Shown one piece after another: positions 43,282 to 47,972 of a stretch of DNA of 64,000 nt. The notes beneath the pieces were generated by a model, which did no database searches, was not told where the DNA came from, and saw nothing but the letters and a program-made list of their open reading frames with translations. Source of the DNA: Eubacteriales bacterium (GTDB lineage Bacteria; Bacillota; Clostridia; Lachnospirales; Lachnospiraceae); assembly GCA_030536575.1 (NCBI GenBank), contig JAUNPS010000009.1, positions 59,433 through 123,432 of the forward strand, read 5' to 3'. Position 1 is the first letter of the stretch. The number at the start of each line of letters is the position of its first letter. Made by a program: the position numbers and the translations under genes.

Positions 43282-43352
43282 AAATCAAATCTCCTTCTAA
43301 AGCGGACATTCCGATTCCGCTTCCACGTTTCATAATCTGCAATCCAAAACAC

Positions 43353-43400
43353 AAAAAGGCATAGCCTGCACCCGGAGCCAACCCCGGCGCAGACTACGCC
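43353..43400 (-). terminator. Attenuator between leader ORF and the CNNM gene
   Basis: On the minus strand GGCGTAGTCTGCGCC pairs with the complementary GTGCAGGCTATGCC (a few G-U pairs) and is followed by TTTTTGTGTTTT. The stem begins two bases after the leader ORF stop codon and lies about 72 bases before the CNNM start. Confidence 0.85.
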
Positions 43401-43401
43401 T

Positions 43402-43470
43402 CTATCCGTTCATAGGACCACATGGAGCAATTATCAACAACTCTGTATCCGCGTCACTGTCATCTTCCAT
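43402..43470 (-). CDS. Leader peptide with acidic N terminus
   Basis: A 22-codon ORF after a strong GGGAGGAAGG ribosome site. It opens MEDDSDADTE and ends IIAPCGPMNG, with the stop right at the foot of the terminator. Short acidic nascent chains can destabilise ribosomes when Mg2+ is low (known for MgtL-type leaders), and the downstream gene is a CNNM protein, so this looks like a sensor peptide (inference). An in-frame ATG at 43494 would add eight residues; a separate 24-codon ORF (43491-43565) with three Trp precedes and overlaps it by ATGA. Confidence 0.6.
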   Translation of the reverse strand: MEDDSDADTELLIIAPCGPMNG

Positions 43471-43609
43471 GCTTTCCTTCCTCCCATCTTTCATCCTGCT
43501 TTTCCCGCCAGCAAGCCCCACGCCCAGCGTACCTGGCACCGCCACATCGAAATGTGCCCGCTCATGCCGCCGTCTCCGGACTCCTTCCGCAGCAAACTAA
43601 ATATGTTTT

Positions 43610-43639
43610 ATCATAGCGCACAGACAGGTTCCCTGTCAA
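43610..43639 (-). promoter_or_regulatory. CNNM leader promoter with overlapping palindrome
   Basis: TTGACA (43634-43639) and TATGAT (43610-43615) with an 18-base spacer. GACAGG-TTC-CCTGTC (43623-43637) is a perfect palindrome overlapping the -35 box and spacer. Confidence 0.65.
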
Positions 43640-43756: not shown

Positions 43757-45505
43757 ATGAAATGGTGCAAAGAAAAATTCAAAAACGCCTCCATCCAGTC
43801 CCAAATCCAGATCGCAATCCTCGGCATCTCCATGCTGTTCATCGTCATCCTTGGAATCTTTTCTTACCAGGTGGCCAGCAACGCCATCGAGAACAACTAC
43901 CGGGAAGACTTCTACTATAACCTGCGCACCTCGAACACCATCTTCGAGATCAAAGCCGACACCATCATCGAACTCATGCGCAACCTGCTGACCGAAGATC
44001 GCTTCATGGACACCCTGGCCGACTCCCAGGAAACGGAAAGCCGCTATTTTTCCACCTACGACAGCCGCCTTTTCGAAAATTACGCGGCCAGCATCTGTCT
44101 CCAGGAGACGGACATTGACGAAGTCCTGGTAGTGGGGCTGGACGGGAAATTGTTTCTTCACTCAAAGATTGCAGGCTCTTCCTATATCAGCTATTACCGG
44201 GAAAAAAATATCGTGGAACAGGACTGGATTTCCCAGATCACAGACGCGAACGGCAGGGAAGTGTTTTTCAGCAGCAATGTATTGAATCCGGACTCACGGG
44301 ATTTCTCCATCGCCAAATCCATGATCGACCCCCGAAATGCCGAGCCAATCGGCTACCTCATTGTCAACGTCCGCAAAGAAATGCTGAAAAAAGCCTTCGC
44401 CACCAAGGGCAGCTACGAAACAAACTGCTTCCTGGTGGCAGACCCGGACGCGGACGAATCGCTGATCTATTTCCAGGGCAACAGCGCTTATCAGGAACAG
44501 ATCCTGGCCGAATACCTGGCCGGTTCCGACCAGACCTACCTGTTCAGCATCTATACAAACGACATGACCGGCTGGGATTTAATCAGCGCCATTGACCGCA
44601 GCGAACTGAGTACGGCCAGCAACCGCATCCGGATGATGATCATCATTGCCGCCATCCTCCTGATCATCTGCAGCGCCGCCGCGGCCGCCGTCATTTCCCG
44701 CCACATCTACGGCCCCTTACAGAAACTGGAGCGCACCATCGAGCAGGTCGGCGAAGGAAACCGCCACATCACCGAAGAATTCGACGGCAGCGAAATCGGC
44801 ATTCTGGGCGAGAAATTCAAACGGATGGTCAACCACAACCTGGAGCTGCGGGAACGCCTCCTGTGTTCCAAAATCCGCGAGCGCGAGGCCGAGCTTTATC
44901 TTTTGCAGGAACAGATTAACCCGCATTTCCTCTATAACGCCCTGGATTCCCTCTACTGCATGGCTGTCATCCACGATGCCGACGACATTGCAAAAATGGT
45001 CGAAGCCCTGTCCAACACCTTCCGCCTGAGCCTGAATAAGGGGAGCAATATCCTGCCCGTCCGGGACGAACTGAAACACATCGAAAACTACATGATCGTG
45101 CAGAATATGCGCTACAATGACCGGTTCCGCCTGGATATCCAGGTGCCCGAAGAACTGCTGGATATCAAAATCCAGAAGCTTCTGCTGGAACCCTTCGTGG
45201 AAAATGCCGTCTACCACGGTCTGGAAACCCGCATCGGCGAAGGCTGTGTTACCGTCCGGGGTTGGCTGGAAGGCCAGGATCTCTATTTCGTCATCGAGGA
45301 CGACGGCGCGGGCGTCGAAGACCTGTCCGTTTTCGAAAGCGGCTACGGCATTACCAATGTCCAGGAGCGCATCCGCCTGTACTACGGAGATTCCTACGGC
45401 GTATCCTTCGAAAGCCAGAAGGGCCAGGGAACCAGAGTGACCGTACACATCAGCACCTCAGGAGAAAGGTATCGGAATACAAATGAAGAAACTGGTAGTG
45501 ATTGA
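43757..45505 (+). CDS. YesM-type sensor histidine kinase
   Basis: A 582-residue kinase for sugar sensing. Helix 1 (about 17-40), a large extracytoplasmic sensor domain (about 41-295), helix 2 (RMMIIIAAILLIICSAAAAA), HAMP, a His_kinase box EQINPHFLYNALDSLYC with the phospho-acceptor His, and an HATPase domain (EPFVENAVYHGLE, DDGAGV, GYGITNVQERI). The ATG at 43757 follows AAGGAG. It overlaps the regulator by 23 bases and is followed by a sugar ABC importer, which it probably induces. Confidence 0.92.
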   Translation: MKWCKEKFKNASIQSQIQIAILGISMLFIVILGIFSYQVASNAIENNYREDFYYNLRTSNTIFEIKADTIIELMRNLLTEDRFMDTLADSQETESRYFSTYDSRLFENYAASICLQETDIDEVLVVGLDGKLFLHSKIAGSSYISYYREKNIVEQDWISQITDANGREVFFSSNVLNPDSRDFSIAKSMIDPRNAEPIGYLIVNVRKEMLKKAFATKGSYETNCFLVADPDADESLIYFQGNSAYQEQILAEYLAGSDQTYLFSIYTNDMTGWDLISAIDRSELSTASNRIRMMIIIAAILLIICSAAAAAVISRHIYGPLQKLERTIEQVGEGNRHITEEFDGSEIGILGEKFKRMVNHNLELRERLLCSKIREREAELYLLQEQINPHFLYNALDSLYCMAVIHDADDIAKMVEALSNTFRLSLNKGSNILPVRDELKHIENYMIVQNMRYNDRFRLDIQVPEELLDIKIQKLLLEPFVENAVYHGLETRIGEGCVTVRGWLEGQDLYFVIEDDGAGVEDLSVFESGYGITNVQERIRLYYGDSYGVSFESQKGQGTRVTVHISTSGERYRNTNEETGSD

Positions 45506-46553
45506 CGACGAATACCTGCTGGCGGCAGGCATCGCCCATATGATTGAAAAAGAAAATCTGGATTACGAAGTCGCCGGTTCCGCCTGCGACGGCCTCTCCG
45601 GCCTTGCCCTGATCCGGGAAGCCAGGCCTGAGCTTGCCATCATCGACATCCGGATGCCGGGCATGAACGGCCTGGAGCTGATTGAAACAGCCAAAGCGGA
45701 ATTTCCGGACATGGTTTTTGCCATCATCAGCGGTTATAAAGAATTCGAATATGCCCGAAAGGGCCTGGAACTGGGCGTCTGCGCCTACATTGATAAACCC
45801 GTCACCCTGGAGAAGCTGAAAAATGCCCTGGCGGCCGCGGACGAAATCCTGGAACGAAAGCTGGAAGACCAGACCATCCAGCAGCAAAAACTCGCGAAAA
45901 AGCGGCTGCAGGTCATCCAGGACGAGATTCTGGCACAAGTCAACCAGAAAAGCAGCGCAGACGGCATGGAAAAAGTGGACGAATGGCTGTCCATCCTCCG
46001 CGCGAATTCCACAGATCTGGAAAGCTTCCGCAACGACTGCTTTCAGTTCATCTGCGCCGTCACCAGCGCCTTCTACGAGCAATGGAAGCAATATGAGAAA
46101 GAATTTGCCTTTCCCTCCTGGCAGAACGCGGCAAACCTGAAGAGCTTCGAGGAGGTGGAGGGGTACACCCGGATGTTTTTCGAGCGGATGTTTGCGAAGA
46201 TTTCTGCCCGCTCCCAGGGAAGCTCCCACCGAATCATCCTGCAGATCCTGGACTATATCAACGAAAATTACCGCCAGGATATCGGGCTGAACGAACTGGC
46301 CGACATGGTAAAAATGAACGCGGCGTATCTCAGCATACTTTTTAAGGACGAAGTCGGCATTACCTATGTGAAATATCTGACAAAAGTACGCATCGACCAC
46401 GCAAAAGAATTTCTGCTGAAAGGCTATAAAGTGGCTGAGGTCAGCGAGTTGGTCGGCTATCATAATTACCGCTATTTCTGCGACATTTTTAAGCGGGAAG
46501 TGGGCCAGACCCCCAACGAATACCGTGGAAATGTACGAAAACGGCAGCTCTGA
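45483..46553 (+). CDS. YesN-type AraC-family response regulator
   Basis: A 356-residue regulator with a receiver domain (VVIDDEYLLAAGI, phosphorylation site IIDIRMPGMNG, KPVTLEKLK) and a C-terminal AraC double helix-turn-helix (IGLNELADMVKMNAAYLS, then VSELVGYHNYRYFCDIFKR). Partner of the kinase at 43757. Likely activates the adjacent importer genes. Confidence 0.92.
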   Translation: MKKLVVIDDEYLLAAGIAHMIEKENLDYEVAGSACDGLSGLALIREARPELAIIDIRMPGMNGLELIETAKAEFPDMVFAIISGYKEFEYARKGLELGVCAYIDKPVTLEKLKNALAAADEILERKLEDQTIQQQKLAKKRLQVIQDEILAQVNQKSSADGMEKVDEWLSILRANSTDLESFRNDCFQFICAVTSAFYEQWKQYEKEFAFPSWQNAANLKSFEEVEGYTRMFFERMFAKISARSQGSSHRIILQILDYINENYRQDIGLNELADMVKMNAAYLSILFKDEVGITYVKYLTKVRIDHAKEFLLKGYKVAEVSELVGYHNYRYFCDIFKREVGQTPNEYRGNVRKRQL

Positions 46554-46592
46554 AATCCAAAAAAAGTAAACATTATCCAAGAAATTACGGAC

Positions 46593-46621
46593 TTTCCAGA
46601 TTCCGGTTTTTATCCTATGAT
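46593..46621 (+). promoter_or_regulatory. Probable promoter of the sugar importer
   Basis: TATGAT with a weak TTTCCA 17 bases upstream, in the gap after the YesN gene. The weak -35 fits a promoter that needs an activator. Confidence 0.4.
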
Positions 46622-46679
46622 AAAAGCAGAAACGAAAATGAATGCAGGCGGCAAAGCCGCCGGAATGTGGAGGTACGCA

Positions 46680-47972
46680 ATGAAGAAAAAGTTATTATCC
46701 GTTATCCTGACAGCCGCTCTGGCAGCCAGCATGACCGCAGTCGGCGTATGCGCAACGGAGCCGGATACCCAGGCTGAGAAAAATTTCAAAGTTCTGTCTA
46801 TCTGGAGTGATGAAAGCGTTGACGGCCAGATTTTGATTGGAATGCTGGACAAATATTCCGAAGTCAATCCGAATTTTACCTATGAATATGAGTATGTGGC
46901 CGCTTCCGATCTGAGCACCAAGATCGCTACCCTGGTTTCCTCCGACGATCTTCCGGATCTTTTCGCTTATGTGGCGGGCACCCCGTTAAAGAACCTGATC
47001 AATGCGGATAAGGTTGTGAACATCAGCGAAGAGCTGGAATCTTTAGGACTTTCCGATCAGATTACCGACGGCGCGAAGAGCATCATGACTTCCCTTTCCG
47101 GAACCGATGATCTGTATGATCTGCCCTTTGGCATGAACGTGGAAGGTTTCTGGTATAACAAAGCGCTGTTCGAGGAAGCGGGCGCAGAAGTTCCGACGAC
47201 CTGGGACGAGCTGCTGGAAGTATGCGACGTCTTTATGGAAAAAGGTATTCAGCCTCTTGCAACCGGCGGCGCGGACAAATGGCCGACCACCCGTCTGATC
47301 AATGCTTACGCTTACCGCACCATGGGCGCGGATGCTACCCGTCAGGCCGCGAACGGCGAAATTTCCTTTACGGATGAAGGTTTTGTAGCTGCGGCACAGA
47401 TGGTTGCCGATATGGTTGAAAAGGGTTACTTCGGAGAAGGCGCTACGACGGTTGATAATACGACCGCAGAAAACATGCTTCTGGCAGGCGAATGCGCAAT
47501 GGTTTATGACGGAAGCTGGTTCACCTCTTCCATCACGGCGGACACGAACCCGGCCGGCGAAGACGGCATTGGCTTTATGGGCGTTCCGGTTGTAGACGAA
47601 TCCATCAGCCCGTCCACCGAATATCCGATGAACTGCGGAAATATCCTCTGCCTGTCCAAATCCAAATATGACGGCGCTACCGCAGGGTTCCTTCAGTATT
47701 TCGTGGAGAACATCGGCGATTACGCAATGGGCGACTACCAGTCCGTAAGAGGCTACACCTACACGGTATCTGATGACGCTTTAAGCCCCATCACAAAAGA
47801 AATCGTTGATACCATCACAACCGCTACCGGTTCTACCGCATGGTGGGAAGCTTACCTGAACGACGAGACCAAATCCGCCGCACAGGACAACGTGCAGACT
47901 CTGATCAACGGGGATATGACAGCAGAAGAATATATGGATTCCATTCAGGAAGCATATGATTTAAGCCGATAA
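46680..47972 (+). CDS. Extracellular sugar-binding protein of an ABC importer
   Basis: A 430-residue family 1 solute-binding protein. It begins MKKKLLSVILTAALAAS with a signal peptide likely cut after GVCA. The cysteine there is not in a standard lipobox (VGVC), so lipid anchoring is uncertain. The mature part starts FKVLSIWSDE, as in CUT1 oligosaccharide binders. The ATG at 46680 has GGAGG upstream. Sugar specificity unknown; the RhaM-like and GH genes nearby hint at plant glycans. Confidence 0.9.
   Translation: MKKKLLSVILTAALAASMTAVGVCATEPDTQAEKNFKVLSIWSDESVDGQILIGMLDKYSEVNPNFTYEYEYVAASDLSTKIATLVSSDDLPDLFAYVAGTPLKNLINADKVVNISEELESLGLSDQITDGAKSIMTSLSGTDDLYDLPFGMNVEGFWYNKALFEEAGAEVPTTWDELLEVCDVFMEKGIQPLATGGADKWPTTRLINAYAYRTMGADATRQAANGEISFTDEGFVAAAQMVADMVEKGYFGEGATTVDNTTAENMLLAGECAMVYDGSWFTSSITADTNPAGEDGIGFMGVPVVDESISPSTEYPMNCGNILCLSKSKYDGATAGFLQYFVENIGDYAMGDYQSVRGYTYTVSDDALSPITKEIVDTITTATGSTAWWEAYLNDETKSAAQDNVQTLINGDMTAEEYMDSIQEAYDLSR

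Follow-up and report, generated by a model that had tools for sequence, protein, structure and literature searches.

An acidic leader peptide closed by an intrinsic terminator stands before a CNNM-type transporter gene in the window (the whole 64,000-nucleotide stretch of DNA analysed here). The same leader design is found before CNNM orthologues in many genera of the family and, outside it, in some further families of the order. We propose that the leader is probably a translation-controlled attenuator that works with reversed MgtL logic, so that the exporter would be off at low Mg2+ (or polyamine). What the sequence offers for this proposal is the set of parts, their conservation, a rule of reading frame and position, the lack of a detectable RNA antiterminator, a start-codon helix in a subset of leaders, and the association with particular genes.

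The leader and its gene occupy the minus strand of the window (Table 1). The initial annotation had described a TTGACA/TATGAT promoter with a palindrome, a strong ribosome site and a 22-codon ORF opening MEDDSDADTE, and we find all of these. It had also named the gene behind them as CNNM/CorC, which its Pfam domains bear out. The terminator is a strong hairpin by folding, its 60-nt stretch reaching -36.3 kcal/mol against a shuffled mean of -19.1 (z -6.1). However, its first paired base is the last base of the leader stop codon, and not, as had been described, two bases after the stop. A simple terminator scan of the window found 2 terminators against a shuffled mean of 4.1 and missed the leader hairpin that folding found.

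Table 1. Features of the acidic leader and its transporter gene in the window.
Feature	Coordinates	Strand	Basis
Sigma-70-type promoter: TTGACA (43639-43634), 18 nt, TATGAT (43615-43610)	43610..43639	minus	11/12 consensus positions
Palindrome GACAGGGAACCTGTC, between promoter boxes	43623..43637	minus	Also scored as plus-strand stem
Ribosome-binding site GGAGGAAGG of leader ORF	43476..43484	minus	Read from sequence
Acidic leader peptide ORF, 22 codons, MEDDSDADTELLIIAPCGPMNG and stop	43402..43470	minus	Translation; counterparts in relatives
Start-codon helix, 5' strand (GCAUGGA)	43466..43472	minus	p 0.13 vs shuffles in window
Start-codon helix, 3' strand (UCCAUGU)	43420..43426	minus	Pairs with 5' strand
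Intrinsic terminator hairpin	43356..43402	minus	Folding; covariation
U-rich tract of terminator	43357-43346	minus	
CNNM-CBS-CorC_HlyC membrane transporter gene, 430 aa	41989..43281	minus	Pfam CNNM, CBS, CorC_HlyC

Several leaders of relatives have TTGAC and TAT-type boxes close upstream, as judged by eye. A promoter scan of the window overall gave 3 promoter-like sites against a shuffled mean of 2.1, which is no excess. The role of the promoter palindrome is doubtful; it is absent by eye from the upstream DNA of the nearest relatives, and we dropped it as an operator for that reason. Between promoter and acidic leader lies a second small ORF, MSGHISMWRCQVRWAWGLLAGKAG and stop, with its own ribosome site (43565-43491, minus strand). 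Its stop overlaps an in-frame ATG (43494) upstream of the acidic ORF. This promoter-to-leader stretch is unusually long in the window and much shorter in a same-genus relative (G001). Directly upstream of the CNNM ribosome site is an inverted repeat of 7 pairs, AAGCGGA..TCCGCTT (43322-43300, minus strand), which could be a further influence on CNNM translation. A divergent histidine kinase and AraC-type response regulator, then a solute-binding protein gene, occupy 43757-47972 of the plus strand.

The leader is retained within the genus and far beyond it. A same-genus genome keeps the ORF and terminator at 75% DNA identity, with the peptide MDTDSDADTASMKIPCYHMN, and a third genome searched in the genus (G002), although it gives no match at the DNA level, shows the leader design (L005). 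Of 397 family genomes, 97 contain a CNNM match at E <= 1e-70, and the matches lie at 99 places; we inspected the upstream DNA at 70 of these plus L004, omitting G050, G391, G115, G134 and the 25 weakest. From 76 upstream regions we delineated 38 leaders by hand (e.g., MDDNSDSDNDSYNYRMPVPCNVMNR, MDDDSDGDHMFKTELRNAPCSFMI, and MEEDSDEDHTAKNTWMNISRLIMDI). Same-genus retention, the design at L005 and the 38 hand-delineated leaders together indicate that the leader design is more than chance. The comparison of relatives for an acidic short ORF with a terminator, proposed in the initial annotation, found start, open frame and position kept, and the proposal withstood it. One leader (L022) keeps the acidic ORF and start-codon helix by eye and has no visible terminator; none of the 13 weakest upstreams examined (L066-L078) was delineated as a leader.

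Wider searches extend this distribution, with detectors whose thresholds varied between searches and which were all designed after the first examples were known. A covariance model built from 18 leaders matched 62 of 397 family genomes and 53 of 334 genera at E <= 0.01, some of the matches being chance. Of 20 model matches read, 6 lacked an acidic leader by our judgement (L124, L131, L134, L135, L136, and L138), 13 preceded other genes, and 1 (L140, G232:C22) preceded a window-type CNNM frame. The leader at L140 is well conserved and the CNNM frame stops after about 74 aa, reflecting either a decayed gene or an assembly error. A codon-level pattern scan gave 15 matches in 12 of 397 genomes, and its reversed-pattern control gave 4. 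By eye, 9 of the 15 are leaders (5 before second-clade CNNM, 2 before P-type ATPase, and 2 before UppP genes) and 6 are not. At a lower threshold, leaders were called at 9 among 28 CNNM upstreams taken from outside the family but within the order (e.g., MDADSDSDANNLYLHLMPEEMDG): L235, L236, L237, L241, and L251 in f17, L242 and L243 in f8, and L246 and L248 in f24. Among nine contigs (L079-L087), with hairpins judged by eye, four (L081, L083, L084, and L087) carry MDDGSS- or MDDGSC-type peptides, L080 and L082 have other acidic starts, and L079, L085, and L086 have none. In the window's own genome the model search found one strong leader, the window copy. The next match (E 0.0015, L118) was considered as a second copy and rejected, being a plain terminator behind a symporter gene.

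The start of the leader peptide is rich in aspartate and its tail is basic. Across 49 leaders (without L021 and L032), residues 2-12 comprise 171 D, 42 E and 19 K+R among 539 residues, while the residues after position 12 comprise 23 D, 31 E, 55 K and 76 R among 947. Because an acidic start was a criterion in choosing leaders, part of this acidity follows from the choice; neither the 4:1 excess of Asp over Glu nor the basic tail was such a criterion. Acidic residues stand adjacent or one apart among the first residues, and the DxDxD spacing with small residues may resemble that of cation-binding loops. Proline is missing from the window's MEDDSDADT and is a minority residue at the tabulated positions, though some relatives have it (e.g., L125 and L127). 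Oscillospiraceae-type leaders (MDDGSSNCHRTEY) are weakly acidic only.

Several signs point to selection on the peptide itself. Conserved serines alternate between AGY and TCN codons, acidic codons are variable, and pairwise differences climb modestly over codon positions 1-3 (0.476, 0.538, and 0.631). Asp swaps with Glu, Ser, Gly, Asn, and Ala, and it is acidity that is kept rather than one codon, in part through the selection of the set. The C-terminus of the leader is not conserved. A DNA motif near the stop, TCCATGT..TTATGAATAGATAGAGG, is read in differing frames (e.g., among L016, L024, L028, and L030), with stops in all three. A C-terminal arrest motif (PC..MN) looked promising in the first relatives and was dropped since other species read the same DNA in other frames.

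The open frame nearly always reaches the terminator. The initial annotation had placed a ribosome at the stop codon, covering the 5' arm of the terminator; the ORF end does reach the terminator, but its stop need not sit directly ahead of the stem, an arrangement that is one of several. In 48 leaders (the 49 without L050, where no terminator was called), folds place the stop no more than 10 nt ahead of the hairpin in 13, within the hairpin in 23, past it in 11 and clearly ahead of it in 1. In 46 of 48 leaders the frame runs without a stop either into the terminator or to a point at most 10 nt from it, compared with 20 and 16 of 48 for the other two frames. Counted the other way, a stop falls more than 10 nt short of the hairpin in 2 leaders for the real frame, in 28 for frame +1 and in 32 for frame +2. 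The ORF end was no criterion in picking leaders for this test. Given the varied stop placement, the rule is best put as 'translation reaches the terminator'; where the stop lies beyond the hairpin (11/48), the ribosome would have to follow polymerase closely. Thus evolution seems to keep two things in these sequences: an acidic translation start and translation that reaches the terminator.

The terminator shows covariation. Another helix joins the start-codon region UACAUGGA to UCCAUGUA, close to the end of the ORF. In an alignment of 18 sequences, 95.0% of the cells in the terminator and start helix are paired, and 21 cells show changes on both sides compared with 6.4 in shuffles, mostly in the terminator. 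Further pair types show no excess (25 compared with 24.0). Eight pairs changed on both sides, and the start helix holds only two of these. The first base of the start codon and its partner change from A-U to G-C in 3 of 18 sequences (L005, L046, and L050), from two genera, L046 and L050 being of the same genus. Tested singly, 14 of 49 leaders have a helix over the start codon that is better than shuffles at p<0.05, and the genes that follow 12 of these 14 are at least 56% identical to the window's gene. The helix is not above shuffles in the window (7 pairs, p 0.13), L046, or L050. Pairing between leader and terminator 5' arm reached p<0.05 in 2 of 43 leaders (the 49 without L044, L045, L050, L062, L166, and L179), about what chance gives, and an antiterminator RNA is thus not evident. 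This suggests that the translating ribosome is the likely antiterminator. Neither helix and terminator nor any other part of the window matches an Rfam family, and the search of 17 relatives' loci returned two tRNAs and nothing else. On these grounds we rejected an M-box or other Rfam element; such weak matches as there were concerned eukaryotic miRNA and snoRNA models and lay far under cut-off.

The association of leader and gene supports exporters over CorA importers. With one fixed detector, leaders were called at 29 of 68 window-type CNNM upstreams and at 2 of 28 CorA importers, both CorA calls being unlike the leader family. Rates for the second CNNM clade (10/19) and P-type ATPases (4/26) are biased upward because their queries were themselves leader-bearing. 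The 68 are the 76 regions minus L002, L003, L006, and L007 (paralogues), L040 (same as L005), L014 (near copy of L013), and L025 and L037 (contig edges), the genomes of the last two showing leaders or model matches at L111 and L108. Same-genus near copies (L052/L053, L019/L021, and L028/L032) were retained among the 68. One of the 29 calls (L015) looks like a chance call; 39 of the 68 had no call from this detector, which overlooks some leaders plain by eye. Contig-edge removals reduced the P-type ATPases from 30 to 26 (L182, L185, L192, and L202) and CorA from 30 to 28 (L220 and L224).

Most of the inspected contexts involve CNNM or P-type ATPase genes. Outside the window type, leaders precede second-clade CNNM genes (L122, L125, L126, L127, L133, L137, L145, and L146) and type II P-type ATPases (L123, L128, L129, and L130), for which the nearest NCBIfam model is Ca2+ PMR1-type, under cut-off. 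Among P-type ATPases, four of the five closest to the query have the leader (L176 does not) and none of the more distant ones do. Rarer genes with the leader encode an OAD_beta subunit (L121), YtvI-like proteins (L132, weakly L139) and UppP (L116 and L117), which are not simple cation exporters. These assignments rest on ten scanned proteins, the rest being assigned by likeness; L126, L129, L130, L139, L117, L145, and L146 were named by eye in this way. Two related genomes, G151 and G048 (L116, L117, L128, L129, L159, and L160), have a region of about 10 kb with leaders before UppP and P-type ATPase genes, where a second-clade CNNM gene with its own leader adjoins the UppP leader, pointing to a clustered regulon.

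CNNM is a family known for export. Among NCBIfam models, the window CNNM protein comes closest to the polyamine exporter PaeA, scoring 247 bits where the cut-off is 500. Polyamine may thus be its cargo and is as possible as Mg2+ for this transporter, whose export is a prediction. Some CNNM proteins without a recognised leader (L070, L075, L015, L017, L002, and L085) have acidic N-termini of their own: MDSGDPDAT, MDLDPDPGAT, MDSDPLLWP, MDSSDAL, and MDADPASV. Such starts might destabilise the ribosome from within the protein itself, as has been proposed for CorC, or might simply reflect an N-terminus that faces outward.

The preferred attenuator can be followed step by step. We infer that the leader is translated, that ribosomes drop off in response to Mg2+ or polyamine, that read-through and the start-codon helix act as follows, and that the transporter exports. 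RNA polymerase would begin just downstream of 43610, and the first ribosome would load at the strong site ahead of 43470. While making the Asp-rich first ten residues, this ribosome would be liable to stall or dissociate, more so where Mg2+ (or polyamine) is scarce. An aborted ribosome would leave the terminator unopposed, and transcription would stop ahead of the CNNM gene. Where the cation is plentiful, a stable ribosome would trail polymerase to the ORF end, cover or unwind the 5' arm of the terminator, and allow the exporter to be transcribed. In the part of the family that has it, the start-codon helix would form after its 3' strand is made, some 40 to 60 transcribed nucleotides later, and bury the start codon. 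It may limit loading to roughly one ribosome per transcript and so keep an aborted attempt from being rescued. Since no antiterminator was found and the ORF almost always extends as far as the terminator, a stable ribosome covering the terminator would be the simplest switch for making the exporter. Off when the ribosome is destabilised is a sign that suits an exporter.

Published work, as represented in excerpts of the sources, is consistent with these steps. Acidic residues near the start of a chain, when adjacent or one apart, cause ribosomes to stall or fall off (PMC11282234), and high Mg2+ offsets this destabilisation (PMC9718836). Among Bacillus strains tested, poly-Asp was equally hard for all, and poly-Glu stalled weakly and only without YkpA (excerpts of PMC11381351). 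The leaders' Asp preference fits this hardness of poly-Asp for Bacillus ribosomes.

The same translation-coupled attenuator could answer a signal other than Mg2+, namely general translation or aspartyl-tRNA, with slow ribosomes turning transporters off. A stalled or absent leader ribosome frees the terminator whatever the signal, Asp exceeds Glu by 171 to 42, and the leader is common to UppP and YtvI-like genes, all of which fit such a gauge. Nevertheless, the replacement of Asp by Glu, Ser, Gly, Asn, and Ala with acidity kept (partly set selection) and the predominance of CNNM and P-type ATPase genes in the inspected contexts tell against it, and the Asp preference is otherwise explained by the poly-Asp data in the available part of PMC11381351. 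We consider this gauge unlikely. It is improbable that the leader is a structured RNA, whether riboswitch or protein-binding RNA, built from the start-codon helix and the conserved terminator sequence with the ORF secondary. Such an RNA would account for the terminator arm AGGTATAGTCTG, conserved beyond terminator needs, and for the covariation of the start codon's first base with its partner. Yet the Rfam searches and the test for an antiterminator were negative, the helix exceeds shuffles in a minority of leaders, and the constants across clades are the acidic start and the open frame.

A small functional protein with its own terminator, and a CNNM gene served by another promoter, is quite improbable, even if promoter, ribosome site, ORF, and terminator do form a complete unit. 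The frame in which the near-stop DNA is read differs between leaders, many ORFs end within the hairpin or past it, and the scan found no promoter-like site on the minus strand between terminator and CNNM start. Very improbable is the opposite polarity, in which drop-off increases downstream expression, as in the described working mode of MgtL and MgtQ (parts of PMC11282234 and PMC8092293). It needs an alternative RNA structure, but pairing with the terminator arm is at chance, and the main downstream genes are exporter-type.

Classical amino-acid attenuators such as trpL also have a leader ORF adjoining an intrinsic terminator. The window leader differs in that no antiterminator is detected, that its acidic run before a cation-transport gene is no run of codons for a pathway amino acid, and that stalling far upstream should switch it off, not on. 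The M-box riboswitch (RF00380) is an Mg2+-linked leader with terminator in Bacillota; it has no match in the window and 0 matches in the window's own genome (about 91% complete).

The closest known relatives of the proposed mechanism come from Enterobacteria. Like the window leader, MgtL of mgtA (E. coli and Salmonella) is a short ORF with early acidic residues that controls a downstream cation-transport gene, with drop-off at low Mg2+. MgtL, in the available part of PMC11282234, serves an importer, has a Rho-dependent terminator and an EPDP with prolines, and drop-off raises expression. In contrast, the window leader has an exporter-type gene, an intrinsic terminator, and no proline in the acidic run, and drop-off should lower expression. 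MgtQ of Salmonella mgtCBRU is likewise a tiny ORF, whose Asp/Glu codons make the ribosome unstable and set Mg2+ transporter expression; unlike the window leader, MgtQ is intergenic and an RNA rearrangement governs importer translation (excerpts of PMC8092293). CorC (YbeX) acts against Mg2+ excess and is proposed to be made at high Mg2+, its own N-terminus destabilising the ribosome at low Mg2+ (PMC12421838, in part, citing Chadani 2021). Here the destabilising sequence is inside the protein. The mechanism of YoaL, before yoaE/mgpA, is untested; both are from Enterobacteria, and the accessible portion of PMC12421838 does not describe a leader-terminator unit for them. Our searches of an open-access library, with most subscription papers outside it, brought up no account of an acidic leader-terminator unit ahead of CNNM genes or those of other exporters, and the nearest idea in print is that of CorC's own N-terminus (part of PMC12421838).

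We tentatively go further and suggest that the Asp-rich nascent chain itself may be the cation gauge in a widespread leader class of Clostridia. Mg2+, Ca2+, or polyamine would steady the ribosome-nascent-chain complex, the ribosome would open the terminator, and a set of exporters, comprising both CNNM clades, type II P-type ATPases and a small number of others, would be switched on. If true, this would be the exporter counterpart of MgtL, with translation itself as antiterminator. How bacterial exporters of Mg2+ and other cations are switched on is poorly known; the regulation of Salmonella mgpA and corC is termed unclear in the available portion of PMC12421838. A leader class before several exporter families of Clostridia would offer a mechanism for cation-exporter induction and may yield sensors for free Mg2+ or polyamine. 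It would also widen nascent-chain ribosome destabilisation from a few cases in Enterobacteria to a broad class of opposite sign.
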